Shown here: positions 21,870 to 32,195 of the stretch, piece after piece | Numbering within the stretch: the first letter of the stretch is position 1 | Layout: each line of letters begins with the position of its first letter | Source of the DNA: a virus | Virus record (IMG/VR): IMGVR_UViG_3300025626_000053 | Coordinates: 1-37,523 of that record | DNA: 37,523 nucleotides | Strand: one strand, 5' to 3' | Made by a program: the position numbers and the translations under genes | The notes under the pieces: model-generated | Told to the model about the DNA's origin: nothing | Databases searched by the model: none | What the model saw: the letters and a program-made list of their open reading frames with translations, nothing else

Positions 21870-22169
21870 TCAATCTCCTATGGGTAGTTTTGCGCCTTTG
21901 GATTCTACCATCCGCTGACTAATAGCTTCCTTTTCTAACTTAGATTTCATTTGCGCGGTAACTAATGCTGCGGCAGTTTCGATTTCAACATTATTTTTTT
22001 CGCAGTACAATACGATAGCGTCTATCATAGTAATAGGCGATTTCTCTCTTACGATTGCAGAAATCTTACTCTCAAAATCTTTTTGACTAAGAATTTTTAG
22101 TTTACTTTTTGAGATTTTTTCGTTATCTTTTGTCATAGCTCTCGGCAAATGTTTGTATAACTTTAGCAT
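21870..22169 (-). CDS. 33: Late transcription coactivator gp33
   Basis: 99 residues (T4 gp33 112), immediately upstream of gp59 as in T4. The conserved pattern is a helix DFESKISAIVREKSPITMID, then AIVLYCEKNNVEIETAAALV, and a C-terminal EAISQRMVESKGAKLPIGD close to the ending I remember for cyanophage gp33 (AKLPI). gp33 binds the RNA polymerase beta flap and links it to the sliding clamp for late promoter activation. The ATG at 22169 is used here; the ATG at 22136 (residue 12) is an alternative. The function fits the many TATAAATA boxes in this window. Confidence 0.8.
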   Translation of the reverse strand: MLKLYKHLPRAMTKDNEKISKSKLKILSQKDFESKISAIVREKSPITMIDAIVLYCEKNNVEIETAAALVTAQMKSKLEKEAISQRMVESKGAKLPIGD

Positions 22170-22771: not shown

Positions 22772-22933
22772 TTACTTTTCGGTTTTTAAAAGTGTCCACA
22801 TGCCGTAGGCTAAACCTGCATATGCTGCTAACTTTGCAATACCGCCGAAGAGTATAATACTACCACAGATGGCAATTAATGTCAAACCGTCAAAAGAAGT
22901 CCGTTCTTGCATAAGTTTTGTTAAATATTTCAT
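22772..22933 (-). CDS. Small membrane protein (53 aa)
   Basis: A 53-residue ORF from the ATG at 22933, which overlaps the upstream stop as ATGA. The sequence begins MKYLTKLMQERTSFDGLTLI and continues with hydrophobic stretches (LIAICGSIILFGGIA and AAYAGLAYGMWTLL), so one or two membrane helices, and ends KTEK. It is tightly packed between DUF1353 and BFD-like genes. I recall similar short proteins in cyanophages. A holin-like or accessory lysis role is possible because DUF1353 genes often sit near lysis genes. Confidence 0.65.
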   Translation of the reverse strand: MKYLTKLMQERTSFDGLTLIAICGSIILFGGIAKLAAYAGLAYGMWTLLKTEK

Positions 22934-23541
22934 GGTACAATCCTCTTACCGTTGAGATCAAATTGATCGCGGTCACGATGCCCGTTCCACGCTACGAAAC
23001 CAGCAAGACGGAGCGACCAATATGCGAGATAGTTCAGTACTTTGAAACCGTTGACTTCAATACAGATGTCACGGAACAATTCGTCTGCCATCTTTTGATC
23101 TAAGTTCCATTCTAACATCTGTTCTTTCTTAGTTCCTGATGTTTTTAATCCTGCATACTTGTAAGCATAGTCGTGTACCAACCCACCCATCAACAACACA
23201 CCCACGGGTGATAAGAACGTTGCGAGAAACTTAGGCACTGATGCACCATCAAACTGAAATCCAGCTGGAACAACAAATTTATTATCACCTAACTGATAGT
23301 GCCAGTCCTCTACGATCTCCCACTGTCGTGTGCCCATCAACCACATCCAGACTCCTTTGAAGAATCCTTTGTCTTTGGTTGCGATAGGCAACGGTGACAT
23401 CTTAGGCATATTCTTGTAAGTAAACCCTACACGTAGTTCGCCTTGCCCGTCAAAGTGACTGATTACAAAACCGGTGACTACCAGCACAGCGAGGATTGCC
23501 CATTGCCAAAATGTTGACATCAAATCTATTAACAGTTCCAT
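22930..23541 (-). CDS. DUF1353 membrane-anchored protein
   Basis: 203 residues. A transmembrane helix at about 11-28 (FWQWAILAVLVVTGFVI) is followed by a DUF1353-type domain: the signature FDGASVP at 97-103, HDYAY at 123-127, and an ADELFRDI helix near 150-157, in the order expected of that family. A strong AAGGAG precedes the ATG and a late promoter lies 25 nt upstream. DUF1353 is common in phages and often close to lysis genes; its biochemical function is unknown to me. Late timing and membrane anchoring suggest action at the host envelope. Confidence 0.8.
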   Translation of the reverse strand: MELLIDLMSTFWQWAILAVLVVTGFVISHFDGQGELRVGFTYKNMPKMSPLPIATKDKGFFKGVWMWLMGTRQWEIVEDWHYQLGDNKFVVPAGFQFDGASVPKFLATFLSPVGVLLMGGLVHDYAYKYAGLKTSGTKKEQMLEWNLDQKMADELFRDICIEVNGFKVLNYLAYWSLRLAGFVAWNGHRDRDQFDLNGKRIVP

Positions 23542-23566: not shown

Positions 23567-23574
23567 TATTTATA
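23567..23574 (-). promoter_or_regulatory. T4-type late promoter for the DUF1353 gene
   Basis: Perfect TATAAATA on the minus strand, 25 nt before the ATG at 23541 and overlapping the iscU-like stop codon. Confidence 0.72.
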
Positions 23575-23953
23575 TGACGTGTTTCTTCCTATAATCTTTT
23601 ATCGCAGCTTTGATCGCATCTTCTGCAAGGACACTACAGTGGATTTTGACGGGAGGGAGGCAGAGTTCTTCTGCGATCTGGGTGTTTCTAATACTCCCAG
23701 CTTCATCAAGATTGCGACCTTTAACCCATTCGGTAAGGAGGCTGGAAGACGCGATAGCACTTCCGCATCCGTAGGTTTTAAATTTAGCATCTTCGATAAT
23801 TCCATCATCATTCACCTGTATTTGTAAAAGCATTACATCACCACAAGCAGGGGCCCCGACCATGCCAGTGCCAACATCTTCTGCTTCTTTGTCTAGTCTT
23901 CCCACATTACGAGGATTCTCGTAGTGGTCCATCACTTTATCAGAATATGACAA
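23570..23953 (-). CDS. iscU: IscU-type Fe-S cluster scaffold protein
   Basis: 127 residues, full length. All active residues of IscU are present at the E. coli numbering: Cys37 and Asp39 (APACGD), Cys63 (YGCGSA), His105-Cys106 (KIHCSV), plus the HscA-binding LPPVK at 99-103. Most of the chain (e.g. DHYENPRNVG, GMVGAPACGDVM, TYGCGSAIASSSL) is as in the E. coli protein. The start is a TTG at 23953 with GGAGG 5 nt upstream. IscU holds nascent [2Fe-2S] clusters passed from the desulfurase IscS, which must come from the host. An extra Cys98 precedes LPPVK. It is probably a host-derived auxiliary metabolic gene. Confidence 0.95.
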   Translation of the reverse strand: MSYSDKVMDHYENPRNVGRLDKEAEDVGTGMVGAPACGDVMLLQIQVNDDGIIEDAKFKTYGCGSAIASSSLLTEWVKGRNLDEAGSIRNTQIAEELCLPPVKIHCSVLAEDAIKAAIKDYRKKHVI

Positions 23954-24237: not shown

Positions 24238-24720
24238 CTAATCTGCGAGAGGATTGTCTAATACATTCTGTATTTTTTTATTTAATCTATCTTCTAATGC
24301 GTTAATCTTCAGTTCAGTATCAGTTTGTAGACTTTCTCTCTTATTGTCAAACCGTTCAGATGCTTTATCAATCATGTTTCTGACATCATCTTGCATCTCT
24401 CTGTTTTGATCTTCGATACGATCAACATTACCTTCCATCCTGTTGAAATCGTCTCTTAGATCGTTCTTGATACTGCGGGAGTAGTCAGTTGCTTCTCCCA
24501 CAGATTCTTGTACTGCATCGAGTTTAATCTCGATTTCGTTGTTCCTTGCTTCTATGGCACTGGTGTCAATATTAGCAACAATTTCTTTCATGTCCATATA
24601 GTCAGAGTAGAATTCAAATGCACCCCAACTCGCTCCACCTAACGTAGAGAGAGCAGTGAGAAGAACCATCATCTTACCGCCCTTAAATGTCATGCCCCCA
24701 AACTCTACTTCAGCCATCAT
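24238..24720 (-). CDS. Membrane-anchored coiled-coil protein
   Basis: 160 residues: a short N-terminal head (AEVEFGGMTFKGGK), one membrane helix at about 16-38, then about 110 residues of charged heptad-like coiled coil. The topology (one N-terminal anchor plus long coiled coil) resembles an inner-membrane spanin subunit, but no lipoprotein partner with a lipobox was found nearby. I remember related proteins with the same start in cyanophages. AAGGAG precedes two ATGs; the second (24717) has the better spacing. Confidence 0.7.
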   Translation of the reverse strand: MMAEVEFGGMTFKGGKMMVLLTALSTLGGASWGAFEFYSDYMDMKEIVANIDTSAIEARNNEIEIKLDAVQESVGEATDYSRSIKNDLRDDFNRMEGNVDRIEDQNREMQDDVRNMIDKASERFDNKRESLQTDTELKINALEDRLNKKIQNVLDNPLAD

Positions 24721-24839
24721 TCATCTCCTTCAAATTCTGGAAACTCGAAACGACGAGTAGGCTGTGTTTGCCCTTTAACGATAGCATCCATTTCCTGAAC
24801 GCTCGCCATTAATTCTACGAATATATCATTTTCAGACAT
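24717..24839 (-). CDS. Small acidic protein (40 aa)
   Basis: A 40-residue ORF from the ATG at 24839 with GAGG about 9 nt upstream, 3 nt after the stop of the preceding exported-protein gene and overlapping the next start. The sequence starts MSENDIFVELMASVQEMDA and ends FEFPEFEGDE. It fills an otherwise empty gap, so it is probably translated. No function recognised. Confidence 0.6.
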   Translation of the reverse strand: MSENDIFVELMASVQEMDAIVKGQTQPTRRFEFPEFEGDE

Positions 24840-24842
24840 CTT

Positions 24843-25268
24843 CTATTCCTCATCCTCGAACGATAGTGCCCGAAGGTTTGCTATTTCTTGTTTTAACTTC
24901 ATTACTTCGATTCTTCGTGCCTCTAACTCTAATTCGTATAATCGATTGCAATCAAGTCGTTTCTGTGGTGCGTTCAACGGTATGACAATTTTGCCGTATA
25001 CACCCACATCTTTTACTAACCCTTCATCTTCCCAGTAATCGGGCAATTCACCCGTATTACTTGAATATGGTCCGTTCTGATTAATAATGCCCACAACTCC
25101 AAACTCTAAATTAACAGAACCACCAATTGCCATAGAGCATTCTAACTGCCCTGACCTAACTCTATCTGTCGCATATGATCCTGACATGTTCGGAAGATTT
25201 AAATTCAACGAACTTGAATCAGCAAACGCATTGCCACACATAAACATTAATATTATAAATCGTTTCAC
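24843..25268 (-). CDS. Exported protein E of the five-gene secreted cassette
   Basis: 141 residues. Signal peptide 1-16 (MKRFIILMFMCGNAFA, cut before DSS). The mature part has SYATDRVRSGQLECSMAIGG and LEFGVVGIINQNG, a short beta strand GVYGKIVIPL, and a C-terminal helix (YELELEARRIEVMKLKQEI). Two cysteines (44 and 107) could form a disulfide in the periplasm. I recall similar proteins in marine myoviruses but no function. The start overlaps the stop of the preceding gene as ATGA, and no lipobox is present. Confidence 0.7.
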   Translation of the reverse strand: MKRFIILMFMCGNAFADSSSLNLNLPNMSGSYATDRVRSGQLECSMAIGGSVNLEFGVVGIINQNGPYSSNTGELPDYWEDEGLVKDVGVYGKIVIPLNAPQKRLDCNRLYELELEARRIEVMKLKQEIANLRALSFEDEE

Positions 25269-25639
25269 TTAATTTTTGAACAGATTTTCGATATTATAGA
25301 TGTTTTCGAACCACCATCCACAAGCAACTTGGATTTCGAGCAAATATAAACAGCATCTTTACTGTCCTTCTCCCTTATATAAATTTCAACTTTCTTTTTT
25401 TCAAGGTGTTTAAATCTCATAATCTTGTTTTGCATTGCGAACGGTACTTTGTTCCACTCTGCATCAAAAACACCAAACTGATAATACTCCACATCGTCTC
25501 GCGCATTGAACAACGTCATTGTTGCATACAACACACCTTCGACATATGAAGTTTTTAATTTCGGATACGTAGGAGTGAACTCATGGGCACTTACGTGCCC
25601 ACTCGCCCAAAGTATCAATATAATTAAATAGCGATACAT
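25265..25639 (-). CDS. Exported protein D, small beta-sandwich, chaperone-like look
   Basis: 124 residues. Signal peptide 1-18 (cut after HVSA). The mature chain starts HEFTPTYPKLK and is made of alternating strands (GVLYATMTLFNARDD, YYQFGVFDAEW, VEIYIREKD), ending with cysteines 100 and 120 near YICSKSKLL and SKICSKIK. The fold looks immunoglobulin-like, comparable to the N-terminal domain of pilus chaperones, but the diagnostic chaperone motifs are not clear. It overlaps protein C's gene by 16 nt and E's gene by 4 nt. Confidence 0.65.
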   Translation of the reverse strand: MYRYLIILILWASGHVSAHEFTPTYPKLKTSYVEGVLYATMTLFNARDDVEYYQFGVFDAEWNKVPFAMQNKIMRFKHLEKKKVEIYIREKDSKDAVYICSKSKLLVDGGSKTSIISKICSKIK

Positions 25640-26127
25640 TCTGCACTCACTACTGCACGATATACGCCGCCAGGAAATGCTTTCCCGTAACCGTAATCTG
25701 CCTGTGTTTCAGTCTTGAACCATGTGCTACCAGCAACGGTTAAACTGAACTCAGTCACATTATCGAACTCTACTTTAGCAGCATCGTAACCAGACATGCT
25801 GGTGTCCGATACCTGAGACGTGGCAGTATCGCCCGTCCATACTACAGTATCATTCAACGTGGGTGCTTCAGAAAATGAAGTAGGGTGTGAAATTCTCGCT
25901 TTATACAAACTCGCTTGAATCACATCGAAGCGTACAACAGGATCTACGCCACCGTCTGTGGGATCTGAACTCAAAACATCTGGGGTTGGGTTACCATACA
26001 CACCAGCAGTATCGGGTGTCACAACACACTTCGACTCGACGTTTCCTACTACTTCCATTTCTTCTGCGTTTACACATAAACAAAAGGTCATCAGAGTACC
26101 GAATAATATAGAAGTTTTATTGAACAT
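25624..26127 (-). CDS. Exported protein C, pilin-like
   Basis: 167 residues. Signal peptide 1-21 (cut after VNA). The mature protein begins EEMEVVGNVESKCVV and ends GVYRAVVSAECIAI, so one cysteine near each end (34 and 164). Beta strands fill the middle (VVRFDVIQASLYKARIS, EFSLTVAGSTWFKT). Cysteine placement and strand-rich composition recall chaperone-usher or spore-coat-U pilins, but this is shape only. GGGAG precedes the ATG. Confidence 0.65.
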   Translation of the reverse strand: MFNKTSILFGTLMTFCLCVNAEEMEVVGNVESKCVVTPDTAGVYGNPTPDVLSSDPTDGGVDPVVRFDVIQASLYKARISHPTSFSEAPTLNDTVVWTGDTATSQVSDTSMSGYDAAKVEFDNVTEFSLTVAGSTWFKTETQADYGYGKAFPGGVYRAVVSAECIAI

Positions 26128-26155
26128 TAATGTTCTCCCTTATGCGTTATTTGTG

Positions 26156-27037
26156 TTACTTCTCATATTGTAAATCAACTAATTGCTGGTGCTTCAATTC
26201 AGAAGCCAGCCCCACTCTCAAACCTTTCTTACTGTCTGGAAGTTTACTATCTTTCAGCGGTTCAGCGTCCGGATATTCACCCCCACTTATCGCCACCAGA
26301 TAATTCCGAGGCAAATAATTAGTCGCAATTAGCGCATTCATCAATAACTGATCTTGTTCAGCTTGTAGACTTGCGCCGAGTGACAAACCTAACATATCTT
26401 CCAAACTTGCCCTAACTTTCTTTTCCATGGACTTCGCCATTTTATCTCTTTCTTCTTTTTCTTCCTGCTCTTTCTGTGCTTGTAAATTTGCTTTGCGATC
26501 TATCTCTGCTTGAATATATTCTTCACTATTAGTATCTATCTCTTGTTCAGGAATTAATGTCAAAGGATCTGCATAACCTTCGCATGATGGATTGTCCTGT
26601 GGACTATTACAAGGAAGGTATTGGTATGTGTAATACACTTCAGGTTCTAATACCGTTCCAAATCCTTCTACTTCTATACTACCATCTCCCCAAAAATCAA
26701 GTGGGATTGAACCAACAGGAATTGCTTTACTAATTGTATTTCCTGGCAATCCAGACCAATCATCACTTGCTCTAAAAATGTATCCTTCTCCCTGTGCGTT
26801 TTCGTTCTGCACATGAACCAGCATATCATCTTCTGTATTCTTTTCTGTAGTGTACCTATAAACCACATTGTTAACTTGCAACCCTGCCGCTTGAGGCAAG
26901 ACGTTTGACATTACCCAATTCAACCCTGCATTAGCAGCATTGTTTGATGTCGCATAAATTATATCTGATTCGCTAGATAAGGAGGAGGAGCAATAGACTA
27001 GCAACGCCGCCAGCACCCATGAGTGTCTTTGTACCAT
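26156..27037 (-). CDS. Exported protein B with conserved surface-type domain
   Basis: 293 residues from the ATG at 27037 (AAGGGG upstream). A signal peptide covers about residues 1-22. A central domain contains HVQNENAQGEGYIFRASDDW, SIPLDFWGDGSIEVEGFG and YTYQYLPCNSPQDNPSCEGY (two cysteines). It is followed by a very charged helical segment (about 170-215) and a helical C-terminus. I have seen such sequences, without function, in marine myoviruses. Its first 65 bases overlap the end of protein A's gene, so A's membrane helix and B's signal peptide are encoded by the same DNA in two frames. Confidence 0.68.
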   Translation of the reverse strand: MVQRHSWVLAALLVYCSSSLSSESDIIYATSNNAANAGLNWVMSNVLPQAAGLQVNNVVYRYTTEKNTEDDMLVHVQNENAQGEGYIFRASDDWSGLPGNTISKAIPVGSIPLDFWGDGSIEVEGFGTVLEPEVYYTYQYLPCNSPQDNPSCEGYADPLTLIPEQEIDTNSEEYIQAEIDRKANLQAQKEQEEKEERDKMAKSMEKKVRASLEDMLGLSLGASLQAEQDQLLMNALIATNYLPRNYLVAISGGEYPDAEPLKDSKLPDSKKGLRVGLASELKHQQLVDLQYEK

Positions 27038-27539
27038 CACTTAACCCCTTCTCTTCTTCTTCCGTAGGAACATCTGTTGATGGTTCCAGTTCTTTGTTTA
27101 CTGCCCAAGCAGCCCTTGCCTCATCACCGATCAAACCGTCAAACGGGCATGGTGTTCCTGCCATCAACATCGCGTCAAAAACTCGTTCGTCTTGACACAA
27201 TGTAGATACAGCAGCAACTTTCATGCCCATATCATATAGAGTCTTAGATAATTTTAGACGCTCACAGTTTGAGTCAGTAATTTGAGATCCCATCGAGATA
27301 CCCAAAATCTGAGTCTGAACAGCACCCGCCACACCAAAGGTACAGAGGTCACTGTTCGAGGTATTTATCGTAGGAGTGATTGCAGACGCAGGAGGTGATT
27401 TTAGCGTTGTAGTGGTATTAGAATCTACAGTACTTCTTGTGGTACTGTCCGTTTTAATTGTGTTGTCGTCTATTGGGGTCACTTCTTCTGCATATACAAA
27501 GGGGTATATTACAAAAAGAAGCACTGACAAATATCTCAT
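26973..27539 (-). CDS. Exported protein A with C-terminal membrane anchor
   Basis: 188 residues. Signal peptide 1-17 (cut after VYA), a Thr/Ser-rich linker (20-63), then a cysteine-containing domain (Cys66, 92, 115, 131) with NCERLKLSKTLYDMGMKVAA and LCQDERVFDAMLMAGTPCPF, an acidic linker and a C-terminal hydrophobic helix (172-188, LMGAGGVASLLLLLLI). It is first in the cassette and follows a late promoter and a CGGAG ribosome site. Conserved in marine myoviruses to my recollection. The topology suggests an inner-membrane-tethered periplasmic protein. Confidence 0.72.
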   Translation of the reverse strand: MRYLSVLLFVIYPFVYAEEVTPIDDNTIKTDSTTRSTVDSNTTTTLKSPPASAITPTINTSNSDLCTFGVAGAVQTQILGISMGSQITDSNCERLKLSKTLYDMGMKVAAVSTLCQDERVFDAMLMAGTPCPFDGLIGDEARAAWAVNKELEPSTDVPTEEEEKGLSDGTKTLMGAGGVASLLLLLLI

Positions 27540-27568: not shown

Positions 27569-27576
27569 TATTTATA
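27569..27576 (-). promoter_or_regulatory. T4-type late promoter for the exported cassette
   Basis: Perfect TATAAATA on the minus strand, 29 nt before protein A's ATG, in the 61-bp gap behind the virion protein gene that ends at 27601. It places the exported proteins in the late, virion-and-lysis programme. Confidence 0.75.
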
Positions 27577-28140: not shown

Positions 28141-29724
28141 TTAATCCTCCACCCAACTCATTGAGATTGCATTCCGAGATATTTGCTGGGGACTTCTAAT
28201 CAGAACAGACAATTGATTTGATGGAGGAATTGCAATTCGAAGGTCTTCTAGAACTTGACTACCCGAACCACCGGCTTCAACATCAAAGATGTACATTAAT
28301 CGTTGGTCTCCTAATGTCACTACGGAAGTTGTATTAGAAGAGGACGCTGAGGAATATTCATTCAATGAAACGAACTCTCTGGTGGTTGCTAGCCCTGTTG
28401 CGTTTAGAAGTAGAGCAACTGTAACGGGACCAGTACCACTGAAAGCGGAATTAATATTTTTTAATAATATTTCTCTTGTGTTGATTTTACCTCTAAACAC
28501 TAAATTATTGGATACTGTTAAAACGTGATGCCAAGTGTCGGCAGTTAGGTTGGTATCACTTTCTCGAAAAGTTGCGGTAGGAAATTTCGTGGTCGTAATG
28601 ACACCTTCGATAGCACCCATCATAGATCCACCTTCAACTACAACATCAGTTCCAGTGCCGCCTAAAGACGCGGCAACATAACCAATCTTCAGAGATGGAT
28701 TATCGATATGGACATCTACATTGCGATTGCTGTAGTGTTCGTGGTGGAAGTAAATCATATCACCATTGATAGGATTCTCAATAGCGTATCGAATCTCCCC
28801 AGCACCCAACCAACGAAAGTTGATTTGAAATACATTTAGTTTAGTGGGGTCGATAGTAACTTTAGAAGGTCCATTGCCATCCAAAGTGTCGAAGTTGAAA
28901 TCTGCTTGTGCTGTCCAAAGAGAAGTATGAGCAACACCAACCTGAACATTAACTGATGTGGCAGTTGTTTGAGTTGTGCCAGCATCATAGTTGAATGCAC
29001 TACCTTTAGCCCCAACAGATCTTGCAAGAAAACAAACTTTATCGTCGTATGTTTCAACAATATAGAATGGGTTTCCTGCAAAAGCAAGAGCAATCTTCTG
29101 TGCTACTTCTTGTACGGTGTCTCCAGTCGTAACTCCAATTGTTTCAGTAGACGTTGATGCACCTTGAGTTGGATATGTAATAATGATATCTGAAGTAGCA
29201 CCAGCGGGTGCGGTAATGGTAAGATTTTCGATGTGTGCCTTACCGCCGTTCTCACGTAACACACCAAACTCAGTACCGTTAAATCCAACCTGTACTGCTT
29301 GTTCTTGTGAGAAGAAACCAGCACGTTGAGTATAACCATCGACACCTACGCCGGGAGCACTTTCGGTAAACTTAGCAGTGAATCGTGAGACTGCACCTTG
29401 ACCTGGGCGATACCTCACAGCACGACGAGAACGAAGAACTCCGTAACCGAATTGACCAGTTCCGGTAGTGACTCGCATTAGAGTATCAGTTGTTCCTGCG
29501 GTGCCACCTGCTTGAAATGTCTCAAACTGTTGAGGATCTAAATCGTACAGACCGTCTAACTGGAGAACAGGCGTGACAGGAACAGCAATTGTTTCACCGA
29601 ACGCAGATCGTGCGGTAGCACCTTCATTGAAGATGTTACCGTATTGATCCGATTGCATCTGGACTTCATACAGAGTTTTAGTGTTGTTGCCAAGTTCTTG
29701 ACTATTTTTATTCCACTGTGCCAT
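28141..29724 (-). CDS. Large virion structural protein
   Basis: 527 residues. The N-terminus (MAQWNKNSQELGNNTKTLYE) and RSRRAVRYRPGQGAVSRFTA, VQVGFNGTEFGVLR, DPTKLNVFQINFRWLGAGE and GGSMMGAIEG are features I associate with a conserved marine-myovirus structural protein. Residues about 162-263 carry the same kind of module as the neighbouring gene (AHIENLTI...GDTVQEVAQKIALAFAGN). The fold is beta-rich, possibly lectin-like. Late co-transcription with the EF-hand gene is expected. Confidence 0.7.
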   Translation of the reverse strand: MAQWNKNSQELGNNTKTLYEVQMQSDQYGNIFNEGATARSAFGETIAVPVTPVLQLDGLYDLDPQQFETFQAGGTAGTTDTLMRVTTGTGQFGYGVLRSRRAVRYRPGQGAVSRFTAKFTESAPGVGVDGYTQRAGFFSQEQAVQVGFNGTEFGVLRENGGKAHIENLTITAPAGATSDIIITYPTQGASTSTETIGVTTGDTVQEVAQKIALAFAGNPFYIVETYDDKVCFLARSVGAKGSAFNYDAGTTQTTATSVNVQVGVAHTSLWTAQADFNFDTLDGNGPSKVTIDPTKLNVFQINFRWLGAGEIRYAIENPINGDMIYFHHEHYSNRNVDVHIDNPSLKIGYVAASLGGTGTDVVVEGGSMMGAIEGVITTTKFPTATFRESDTNLTADTWHHVLTVSNNLVFRGKINTREILLKNINSAFSGTGPVTVALLLNATGLATTREFVSLNEYSSASSSNTTSVVTLGDQRLMYIFDVEAGGSGSQVLEDLRIAIPPSNQLSVLIRSPQQISRNAISMSWVED

Positions 29725-30062
29725 TATTTTTTACCGGTATAAGCGGCCGCTCCGAAGAAAGCGGCGACGAGGGCTGAGATTGCGATGAAATAAGTTGGCG
29801 CGATATCACCGATGATTGTTGCGGCATTAGACAAACCAAACAACTCTGTCGCAAAAATGCCAAAAGGATACAACAACATACCAAACAATGCAAACCAAGT
29901 CATCTTGCGTTGAGCGTCACGTTGTGCATCCTGATCTTCGAGTTCTTTACGCCGGAATTCCAGATTTAGATGTGTCTCTAACTCTTCCGAAGAAATGTGT
30001 CCATCACCATTAGTGTCGGCACTCTTCGGAAGATCTACTGTGTGTTTCTTTTTGGTGGTCAT
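29724..30062 (-). CDS. EF-hand protein with two membrane helices (holin candidate)
   Basis: 112 residues. Residues 16-27 are a canonical EF-hand calcium loop (DTNGDGHISSEE, ligands at loop positions 1, 3, 5, 7, 9 and 12). A charged helix (30-53) follows, then two hydrophobic helices at about 54-76 and 85-109, ending GKK. Small size, two helices and location 49 bp from the lysozyme gene make a holin role plausible. A structural membrane protein is the alternative. It has its own late promoter 30 nt upstream. The calcium-binding domain would be cytoplasmic if both termini face in. Confidence 0.75.
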   Translation of the reverse strand: MTTKKKHTVDLPKSADTNGDGHISSEELETHLNLEFRRKELEDQDAQRDAQRKMTWFALFGMLLYPFGIFATELFGLSNAATIIGDIAPTYFIAISALVAAFFGAAAYTGKK

Positions 30063-30092
30063 TGTAATATACTCATATGTTCTATAATCGTA

Positions 30093-30100
30093 TATTTATA
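30093..30100 (-). promoter_or_regulatory. T4-type late promoter for the EF-hand/virion protein genes
   Basis: Perfect TATAAATA on the minus strand, 30 nt before the ATG at 30062, in the gap after the lysozyme gene. Confidence 0.75.
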
Positions 30101-30111
30101 ACAATGGTTTA

Positions 30112-30558
30112 TTAGAGAGCCTCTAATCTTTTCATCAATCGTTCTGCACGATTTGTCACTTGTTTGTGCCAACGAGAATCTCGCCCTTCGACTGCTGCTT
30201 CCTTCCAATCACCAGCAATAAGTGCACCAGTAAACTTCTTAAACTTAGATAAGCGAGTTCGTCCCATGTTAAACATCATGTTGACCACGATCTGCTGGAC
30301 TTCTTCTGGAAAGTCATCAAAGACGCTTTCTGTGTATAGAGCGTGACACTCACTGATTGCGGTGTCGAGGTCTTTTTCAAAACATTCCCATACTCTCTCT
30401 TCGGAGATTGGTGTTCCGAATGGTTCACCCCACTCGGGATCTTCATTGATAACAAGATGCCCCACCCCAAACGTGTGGTATCCGAGATGGTCTGCGTAAA
30501 TCTCATACTTGACACCCTCGTCGATTTTTAATGTTTCGAATACTTCTTCTCTGTTCAT
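30112..30558 (-). CDS. e: T4-type lysozyme (endolysin, GH24)
   Basis: 148 residues (T4 lysozyme 164). The catalytic triad is present: Glu14 (KIDEG), Asp23 (YADHLGY) and Thr29 (YHTFGVGHL), aligning with T4 Glu11, Asp20 and Thr26. The C-terminal lobe has VNMMFNMGRTRLSKF and SRWHKQVTNRAERL, as in T4. No signal peptide, so a holin is needed for release. It cleaves the glycan backbone of peptidoglycan. It overlaps the preceding small gene by 4 nt. Confidence 0.95.
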   Translation of the reverse strand: MNREEVFETLKIDEGVKYEIYADHLGYHTFGVGHLVINEDPEWGEPFGTPISEERVWECFEKDLDTAISECHALYTESVFDDFPEEVQQIVVNMMFNMGRTRLSKFKKFTGALIAGDWKEAAVEGRDSRWHKQVTNRAERLMKRLEAL

Positions 30559-31778: not shown

Positions 31779-32195
31779 TTACTTTTTCCAGAACTTACCT
31801 TGAATCAACTTTTTACATACTACCAAAGGATTGTAATAAAACTTATACTCCCAATTATATTGAGCATAATCCGTTTCATAAGTTAACCTTGGTGTCCAAG
31901 CTCTTTTCCAGTTGTCTACGATCAAGCCGTCGTGTTCTAATACTGCATGACCACCGCCGGAAGTTGAGATAAAACAAATTTTTACTTTGCGGGTGAATAA
32001 CATCCACAAAAACTTCAACCGTGATTGCCCAGCTAATAACCATGCTACTGTCAACGCATAATCTTCGCAGTCGCCTTGATCTTTTTCTTGAGTGACATCC
32101 AGAACGCGCCAATAGTCTGCGGCATTATACTGTTCTTTGTCAAACTCATACTCAAATAAACCGTTTACTTTTTCTACCGCTTCGAATTTATTCAT
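31779..32195 (-). CDS. Transglutaminase-like cysteine protease family protein
   Basis: 138 residues with the catalytic pattern of the bacterial transglutaminase-like cysteine peptidases: Cys43 in QGDCEDYAL, His83 in GGGHAVLEH, Asp94 in LIVDNW. Length and order fit a single small domain without a signal peptide. Related proteins are common in marine myoviruses and are of unknown target. Possible roles are processing of a virion protein or modification of host proteins. The start overlaps the stop of the small basic gene upstream. Confidence 0.8.
   Translation of the reverse strand: MNKFEAVEKVNGLFEYEFDKEQYNAADYWRVLDVTQEKDQGDCEDYALTVAWLLAGQSRLKFLWMLFTRKVKICFISTSGGGHAVLEHDGLIVDNWKRAWTPRLTYETDYAQYNWEYKFYYNPLVVCKKLIQGKFWKK

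Follow-up and report, generated by a model that had tools for sequence, protein, structure and literature searches.

The closest described counterparts of the locus studied here are the bacterial chaperone-usher pairs (FimC/FimA, PapD/PapG, Caf1M/Caf1 and SafB/SafA), the curli (type VIII secretion) clusters of pelagiphages and phage Melnitz, and the late or accessory phage proteins that act on the envelope, namely the spanins (Rz/Rz1) and Llp of phage T5. The locus lies in a stretch of viral DNA of 37,523 nucleotides (nt) (IMG/VR virus record IMGVR_UViG_3300025626_000053, positions 1 to 37,523; hereafter the window), in which five genes, A to E, had been proposed to form a late-transcribed cassette of exported proteins (hereafter the original prediction). 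This late export module is real, conserved and larger than reported. The original prediction missed a sixth gene, G, the division of the module into two separable halves (A-B-G and C-D-E), the absence of an usher match, and the presence of the trio C-D-E in about 180 Vibrio phages.

As in the chaperone-usher pairs, C and D are adjacent and exported, D has a predicted chaperone N-domain fold, and C combines an immunoglobulin-like (Ig-like) fold with an N-terminal hydrophobic-x-Gly-x-hydrophobic pattern and a C-terminal Gly(-14)/Ala(-10) signature. Unlike these pairs, D consists of one domain, no usher was found in the records searched, sequence similarity was not significant, and the genes belong to lytic phages and stand behind a late promoter. 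The cysteines of C also lie in its first and last strands, unlike the pairing generally given for classical pilins. With the curli clusters, the locus shares the nature of a phage-borne, multi-gene surface-export module. Those clusters hold CsgF, CsgG, FecR, an adenylate cyclase and a histidine kinase (PMC9599517, cited in part). Searches of Pfam and NCBIfam recognized no curli family in A to E or G, and a curli identity of the cassette was rejected, as no CsgG, CsgF or curli repeats matched in A to E. The locus resembles the spanins and Llp as a set of late, envelope-acting phage proteins, and G is laid out like an i-spanin (N-in, with a coiled coil), while the type I layout, as in A, has been named as a possible i-spanin (passages of PMC6139136). 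Unlike spanins and Llp, the module comprises five exported partners instead of one. No conserved lipoprotein was seen near G in 80 loci, and the Rz family PF03245 was found in 0 of 16 records.

Layout, export signals and conservation

Genes A to E are co-directional on the minus strand and span positions 27539-24843, with G downstream of E:

27569-27576, minus: T4-type late promoter element TATAAATA, approximately 30 nt before the start of A
26973-27539, minus: A, 188 amino acids (aa); signal peptide, T/S-rich linker, conserved four-cysteine domain, C-terminal transmembrane (TM) segment
26156-27040, minus: B, 294 aa; signal peptide and beta-rich domain; a single CxxPQxxPxCxGY unit; helical, charged linker; conserved HxxMVxxQY motif at the C-terminus
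25624-26127, minus: C, 167 aa; pilin-like exported Ig-like subunit with a donor-strand-like N-terminal segment (predicted)
25265-25639, minus: D, 124 aa; exported, single-domain, chaperone-like protein (PapD/FimC N-domain fold, predicted)
24843-25268, minus: E, 141 aa; exported, two invariant cysteines, C-terminal amphipathic helix
24238-24720, minus: G; one N-terminal TM segment, coiled coil, C-terminal NPL

The five genes had been described as consecutive and overlapping. They are consecutive and overlap at A/B (68 nt), C/D (16 nt) and D/E (4 nt), but B and C are separated by a gap of 28 nt. All 72 of the 72 related loci compared keep the A/B overlap, at 47-98 nt, and since the stop codon of A lies inside B, the anchor of A and the signal peptide of B share DNA in two frames (26973-27040). 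B starts with GTG, and an ATG like that of its homologues is found one codon further in.

The source of the window is a T4-like phage, as indicated by gp32, gp59, a gp33-type late coactivator and baseplate proteins, including a wedge subunit (phrog_219). The window contains 14 copies of the element TATAAATA where 2.5 would be expected, and 0 of 100 shuffles reached this number. Among the 80 related loci, 23 have the element no more than 120 nt ahead of A, compared with 1.3% of random stretches. The single late promoter placed ahead of the cassette by the original prediction was thus recovered. Signal peptides, scored with a crude in-house rule and not with SignalP, were likewise found on all five proteins as claimed. 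Elsewhere in the window, 4 of 38 genes satisfied the rule, and at least three of these four encode membrane proteins. The rule was also satisfied by nearly all homologues (A 76/80, B 72/73, C 70/70, D 63/66 and E 61/63). The paired cysteines held up equally well, mature counts being almost fixed across relatives: two in C (70/70), D (66/66), E (63/63) and B (72/73), and in A four (75/80) or six (5/80). Gene order and invariant cysteines, together with the late promoter and the signal peptides, are established by the sequence or by confident prediction. The same applies to the C-terminal anchor announced for one protein, which is A (hydrophobic segment in 79 of 80 relatives), and to the N-terminal anchor of G, whose TM segment and C-terminal NPL are both present in 62 of 62 sequences.

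A search with A retrieved at least 598 relatives among 599 matched viral-contig stretches, of which 80 loci were kept. According to profile hidden Markov models, A-B-C-D-E-G was complete, in the same order and on the same strand, in 62 of them; 16 others ended at a contig edge too soon after A, and two (L072 and L076) were without C-D-E. When the open reading frames (ORFs) of the 80 loci were clustered with a floor of 45 aa, the six families were found in 79 (A), 72 (B), 70 (C), 65 (D), 63 (E) and 60 (G) loci, and the next neighbour family in only 27, indicating that A-B-C-D-E-G travel jointly in varying surroundings. A lack of co-conservation, which the original prediction had named as speaking against it, was not observed: A to E are strongly co-conserved across loci. 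G is a constant sixth member of the module, so that the five-protein unit stands for A to E and was incomplete in omitting G. A second set of 80 loci, which mostly re-cuts contigs of the first (73 new identifiers and 7 old) and is not independent of it, gave 53 complete, 16 cut and 4 loci without C-E among the 73 new identifiers. Alignments for profiles and models comprised 72 (A), 44 (B), 64 (C), 59 (D) and 45 (E) sequences, omitting near-duplicates and ranges with internal stops (e.g., L061 E and L039 B).

Predicted folds of D and C

The AlphaFold2 model of D (59 sequences) had a pLDDT of 92.8. With Foldseek, 15 of the 17 PDB matches at E<=1e-3 were pilus chaperones (SafB, FaeE, Caf1M, DraB, FimC, SfaE and PapD) and the remaining two were VAP-A MSP domains. 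VIA-align gave Z up to 10.8 and aligned residues 18-124 of D, the mature protein, to chaperone residues 1-114, the N-terminal domain; among the 50 matches listed, 42 were chaperones, six CsxA and two MSP entries. D has no counterpart of the second chaperone Ig domain, and the two-domain L shape is absent. Its last strand runs to the C-terminus and reads S-[RK]-I-C-S-[KR] in nearly all sequences. The anchoring residues of the chaperones are Arg8 and Lys112. The residue two past the last cysteine of D is Lys or Arg in 59 of 59 sequences, and the ends of the aligned ranges suggest that this position falls near chaperone residue 112, while no equivalent of Arg8 was seen in D. We predict with high confidence that D is a PapD/FimC-type chaperone reduced to its N-terminal domain, in agreement with the Ig-fold chaperone anticipated by the original prediction. 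A search of D against the viral structure library BFVD returned three matches at E<=1e-3, with no named function. A BFVD match for D came from Erwinia phage pEp_SNUABM_01, in which the matching gene was not pinned down.

The model of C (64 sequences) reached a pLDDT of 91.5, and its five best Foldseek matches were chaperone-usher pilins (CfaB three times, the PapG pilin domain and the CS17 pilin), with a best E of 1.3e-3. In type-1-like pilins, a hydrophobic-x-Gly-x-hydrophobic pattern precedes the first cysteine. C carries Ile, Val or Leu at -8, Gly at -6 and Val or Ile at -4 before Cys34 in 64 of 64 sequences. The general pattern ahead of the first cysteine was present in 64/64 C and in 9/14 Escherichia coli K-12 pilins; among other ORFs it was present in 8/1076, including a C homologue missed by the filter. 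Only one of six Vibrio C proteins has it, the Gly being missing. At the other end, the last strand of the model (161-166) reaches the C-terminus, and 51/64 C and 5/6 Vibrio C combine Gly at -14 with Ala at -10, counted from that terminus. The combination was found in 11/14 K-12 pilins, compared with 15/1075 other ORFs. The Ig-like model and the two terminal signatures moderately support a pilin kinship of C, and the protein that had been called pilin-like can be described, from model, Foldseek and motifs, as an Ig-like sandwich with pilin-type ends.

Several results weigh against a chaperone/pilin relation. VIA-align gave C a Z below 8 and ranked staphylococcal adhesin domains first; both terminal motifs were spotted post hoc; and C is without the penultimate Tyr found in most K-12 pilins. 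D also aligned with the Ig domain of chitosanase CsxA at Z 10.2-10.4, so that its Ig fold alone is not exclusive to chaperones. The profile of mature C scored 14.9 against K-12 pilins, where the shuffled-column maximum was 17.7, and that of mature D scored 15.7 against K-12 chaperones, with a maximum of 17.0. An apparent C-pilin homology, a match of 91.7%, was discarded because it stemmed from the signal peptides and was gone in the mature-only comparison. D had no Pfam or NCBIfam match, and sequence searches of the PDB with the profiles of A to E and of a long form of B (see below) gave nothing significant. The usher family PF00577 was above cut-off in 0 of 32 records, which included nine named phages and not the window record, itself a fragment; one sub-threshold match contained two stops, and the E. 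coli control was positive. Given no significant mature profile match and no usher, the relation of C and D to the chaperone-usher systems is one of fold and motif; the two proteins cannot be filed in the chaperone-usher families, but they look alike and may work alike.

The most serious competing view is that C and D are just two exported Ig-like proteins with no chaperone/pilin relation, each binding host envelope proteins. Ig folds are common, the Z-score of C is middling, and the mature proteins show no significant similarity to pilins or chaperones. However, chaperone N-domains dominate the matches of D, while its neighbour C independently gives pilins among its best matches and bears pilin signatures at both ends. 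We regard this explanation as unlikely, and a true chaperone/subunit pair as the somewhat better bet.

The two halves of the module and their surroundings

A tblastn search with E identified 180 phage records, all from Vibrio. In phage pVp-1, homologues of C and D lie upstream of the E homologue (E') in the order of the window. C' was found in 179 records; for D', a lax limit gave 182, and coverage was at least 80% in 179 of these. Profiles of C, D and E detected 8, 8 and 10 of 10 Vibrio loci at E<=1e-3, four of the ten being IMG/VR records that resemble isolate genomes. When mature-only profiles of the window family and of Vibrio were compared with each other, with 60 column shuffles as control, C scored 55.3 against a shuffle maximum of 19.5 and D 30.0 against 18.3. 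On these profile scores for C and D, and by tblastn for E, C-D-E of the window and the Vibrio trio are homologous and strongly diverged. The trio, whose three genes are consecutive in these Vibrio siphophages, shares the gene order of the window; it differs in standing without A, B and G and in being followed by a small lipoprotein. In pVp-1, the trio corresponds to pVp-1_0077/0078/0079 (phrog_25895, phrog_25455 and phrog_37374), and E' is followed by the small lipoprotein, a T-type holin and an M15 endolysin. Upstream, the Vibrio trio is preceded by two large genes that, judged from their sequence, resemble tail fibres. In the records examined, Vibrio C-D-E were annotated solely as hypothetical proteins. 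The small lipoprotein (CTxNxxIDTDYA...; phrog_16916) is conserved downstream of C-D-E in Vibrio phages and was located at L088:5266-5424, L089:5221-5424 and L093:6836-7009.

The other half also occurs alone. Loci L150, L154, L160, L076 and L072 have A, then a long B (at least 563 aa) and G, without C-D-E:

L076:6413-9019: long B gene
L072:1651-3732: long B gene
L154:5612-7858: long B gene
L150:5359-7356: long B gene

Long B has a sandwich-like N-terminal sequence, two-cysteine repeats (5-12 copies counted, where the B of the window has one such unit), a linker that is acidic or charged, and a C-terminus that it shares with the B of the window. The repeat comprises approximately 23 residues (QQCxxNPLYxxxCPGYxxAYxx) and had no Pfam match. 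The repeat protein of L154, the one tried, had no match in cultured phages. The cultured Pelagibacter phage HTVC115P carries A, a long B (profile match 8e-4) and G, while in HTVC023P, Mosig and uvMED S28-C10, A is followed by an exported protein of 461-611 aa with a marginal or absent match to B. A-B-G and C-D-E are therefore separable halves of the module. Homologues of A occur in marine phages, pelagiphages and roseophages, and A matched no Pfam or NCBIfam family and no PDB profile. The weak matches of interest for B were carbohydrate-binding sandwiches: Lectin_leg in Pfam (0.012) for B, CBM_4_9 (0.0089) for the uvMED protein and FBXO44 (0.03) for long B. For G, PADLOC returned only weak coiled-coil matches, and an anti-defence reading was dropped for that reason.

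Other features of the window near the module are the following:

31779-32195, minus: transglutaminase-like C93 peptidase, slightly under the Pfam cut-off; family near the module in 12/80 loci
30112-30558, minus: lysozyme-domain gene, adjoining the next gene (together 29724-30558)
29724-30062, minus: EF-hand protein gene
24717-24839, minus: 40-aa ORF between E and G, putative, coding status uncertain
23570-23953, minus: NifU-type Fe-S scaffold gene, downstream of G in the same late unit
23567-23574, minus: next TATAAATA on the cassette strand
22930-23541, minus: DUF1353 membrane protein (phrog_1158, 'tail assembly chaperone'), near the module in 12/80 loci
21870-22169: gp33-type late coactivator gene

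Between E and the next minus-strand TATAAATA lie, in this order, the 40-aa ORF (too short for the neighbour clustering), G, an ORF of 70 aa and NifU; the transcription unit thus exceeds the reported five-gene cassette. EF-hand proteins with membrane segments, possibly holins, form the commonest non-module neighbour family (27/80 loci). Among 31 records searched, mostly fragments, phrog_224 (the gp32 family) was present in 5; phrog_219 was present in 4, where one match was weak. A 6.3-kb contig in a Bacteroidetes metagenome-assembled genome (MAG), L094, bears the whole module with 67-84% identity for A to E and G, and is probably a mis-binned phage contig. A genome scan with B for bacterial, non-phage homologues led to this one MAG contig and was uninformative.

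Possible functions

The original prediction had named envelope remodelling, superinfection exclusion, a lysis aid or a surface structure as candidate functions. We consider it probable that the site of action is the infected cell, in its periplasm or envelope, and not the virion. As a whole, we tentatively read A-B-C-D-E-G as a set of envelope-directed proteins that lytic phages export late in infection, with an usher-less minimal chaperone/pilin pair at its core. In the mechanism that we propose, A to E would be exported via Sec late in infection and then oxidized. D, a chaperone reduced to its subunit-binding domain, would donate its C-terminal strand to C and prevent C from aggregating. E would act as a partner, and C and E would be passed on to a complex that A and G anchor in the inner membrane, while the sandwich domain of B may bind a glycan of the wall or the outer membrane. 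Such a complex could alter or bridge the envelope in the final phase of infection and so aid the release of progeny.

The late timing argues for a role at or shortly before release. Lysis genes are also found near the module or the trio in unrelated phages, with the T-holin and M15 endolysin of pVp-1, an M15 peptidase in HTVC023P, and lysozymes in L084 and in the window (30112-30558), and holin or endolysin genes nearby in several unrelated phages agree with such a role. On the opposite side, the Vibrio trios do without A, B and G, pVp-1 is listed with an i-spanin and an o-spanin (PMC6139136, in the part cited), and L048 has an Rz1-like lipoprotein ORF (L048:4999-5265) 0.9 kb upstream of A. 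Because of these pVp-1 spanins and the L048 ORF, the module does not simply replace spanins, and full spanin replacement was weakened as a candidate. We put forward release or lysis-phase remodelling as the purpose of the module with reserve, as a possibility somewhat below even. A more specific version, in which the one-domain chaperone D and the pilin-like C, via E on a glycan-binding scaffold of A, B and G, polymerize late in the periplasm and mechanically open or reshape the envelope, is speculative and on balance improbable.

The main functional rival to a release role is superinfection exclusion or receptor masking, in which the exported proteins would act like T5 Llp and obstruct either a receptor in the outer membrane or the route of injection. 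The surroundings fit this idea in part, since the Vibrio trio sits behind two tail-fibre-like genes and ahead of a small lipoprotein, and a tail-fibre-assembly family is present in 11/80 loci, typically directly upstream of A. The T5 llp gene adjoins that of the receptor-binding protein pb5, and Llp acts from the periplasm (PMC9586334, in part). However, expression from a T4-type late promoter would come late for exclusion, six conserved proteins far exceed the needs of known exclusion factors, and the window type is without a conserved lipoprotein. We regard exclusion as an unlikely purpose.

Less likely still, C could form a fibre through donor-strand exchange that is extruded, or freed at lysis, and tethers cells or debris, with a purpose like the 'sibling capture' that has been proposed for pelagiphage curli. 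The donor-strand-like N-terminal segment and the pilin-like C-terminus of C would suit a fibre, and since pelagiphages carry curli genes, phage-built fibres have been proposed earlier (PMC7029224 and PMC9599517, both cited in part). The lack of an usher in the 32 records speaks against it, as does the report of Buchholz et al., in the passages cited, that no clumping was seen with a curli-bearing phage (PMC9004378). Finally, that A to E are virion components, e.g., associated with fibres, despite their signal peptides, is very unlikely: late transcription and virion and tail-fibre genes next to the module in several phages would allow it, but the signal peptides and the even numbers of cysteines, seen in almost every homologue, suggest that the proteins are exported and oxidized and speak against virion assembly in the cytoplasm.

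On the preferred reading, the virus would rebuild the envelope of its host cell shortly before release. If this reading is true, viruses have adopted the pilus chaperone/subunit principle and reduced it to one chaperone domain without an usher. No paper on phage-encoded pilin/chaperone pairs was found by title in the literature searched. Should the polymerizing version be correct, it would be, as far as that literature shows, the first viral donor-strand assembly serving release or envelope remodelling. The preferred reading would also provide a function for the dark families phrog_25895, phrog_25455, phrog_37374 and phrog_16916 as well as for the A and G families. Marine phages commonly carry the module, and about 180 Vibrio phage records, some of them from phages that infect laboratory-tractable strains, contain its C-D-E half. 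Deleting genes in one of these Vibrio phages would put the question of what phages send to the host envelope late in infection to a direct test.

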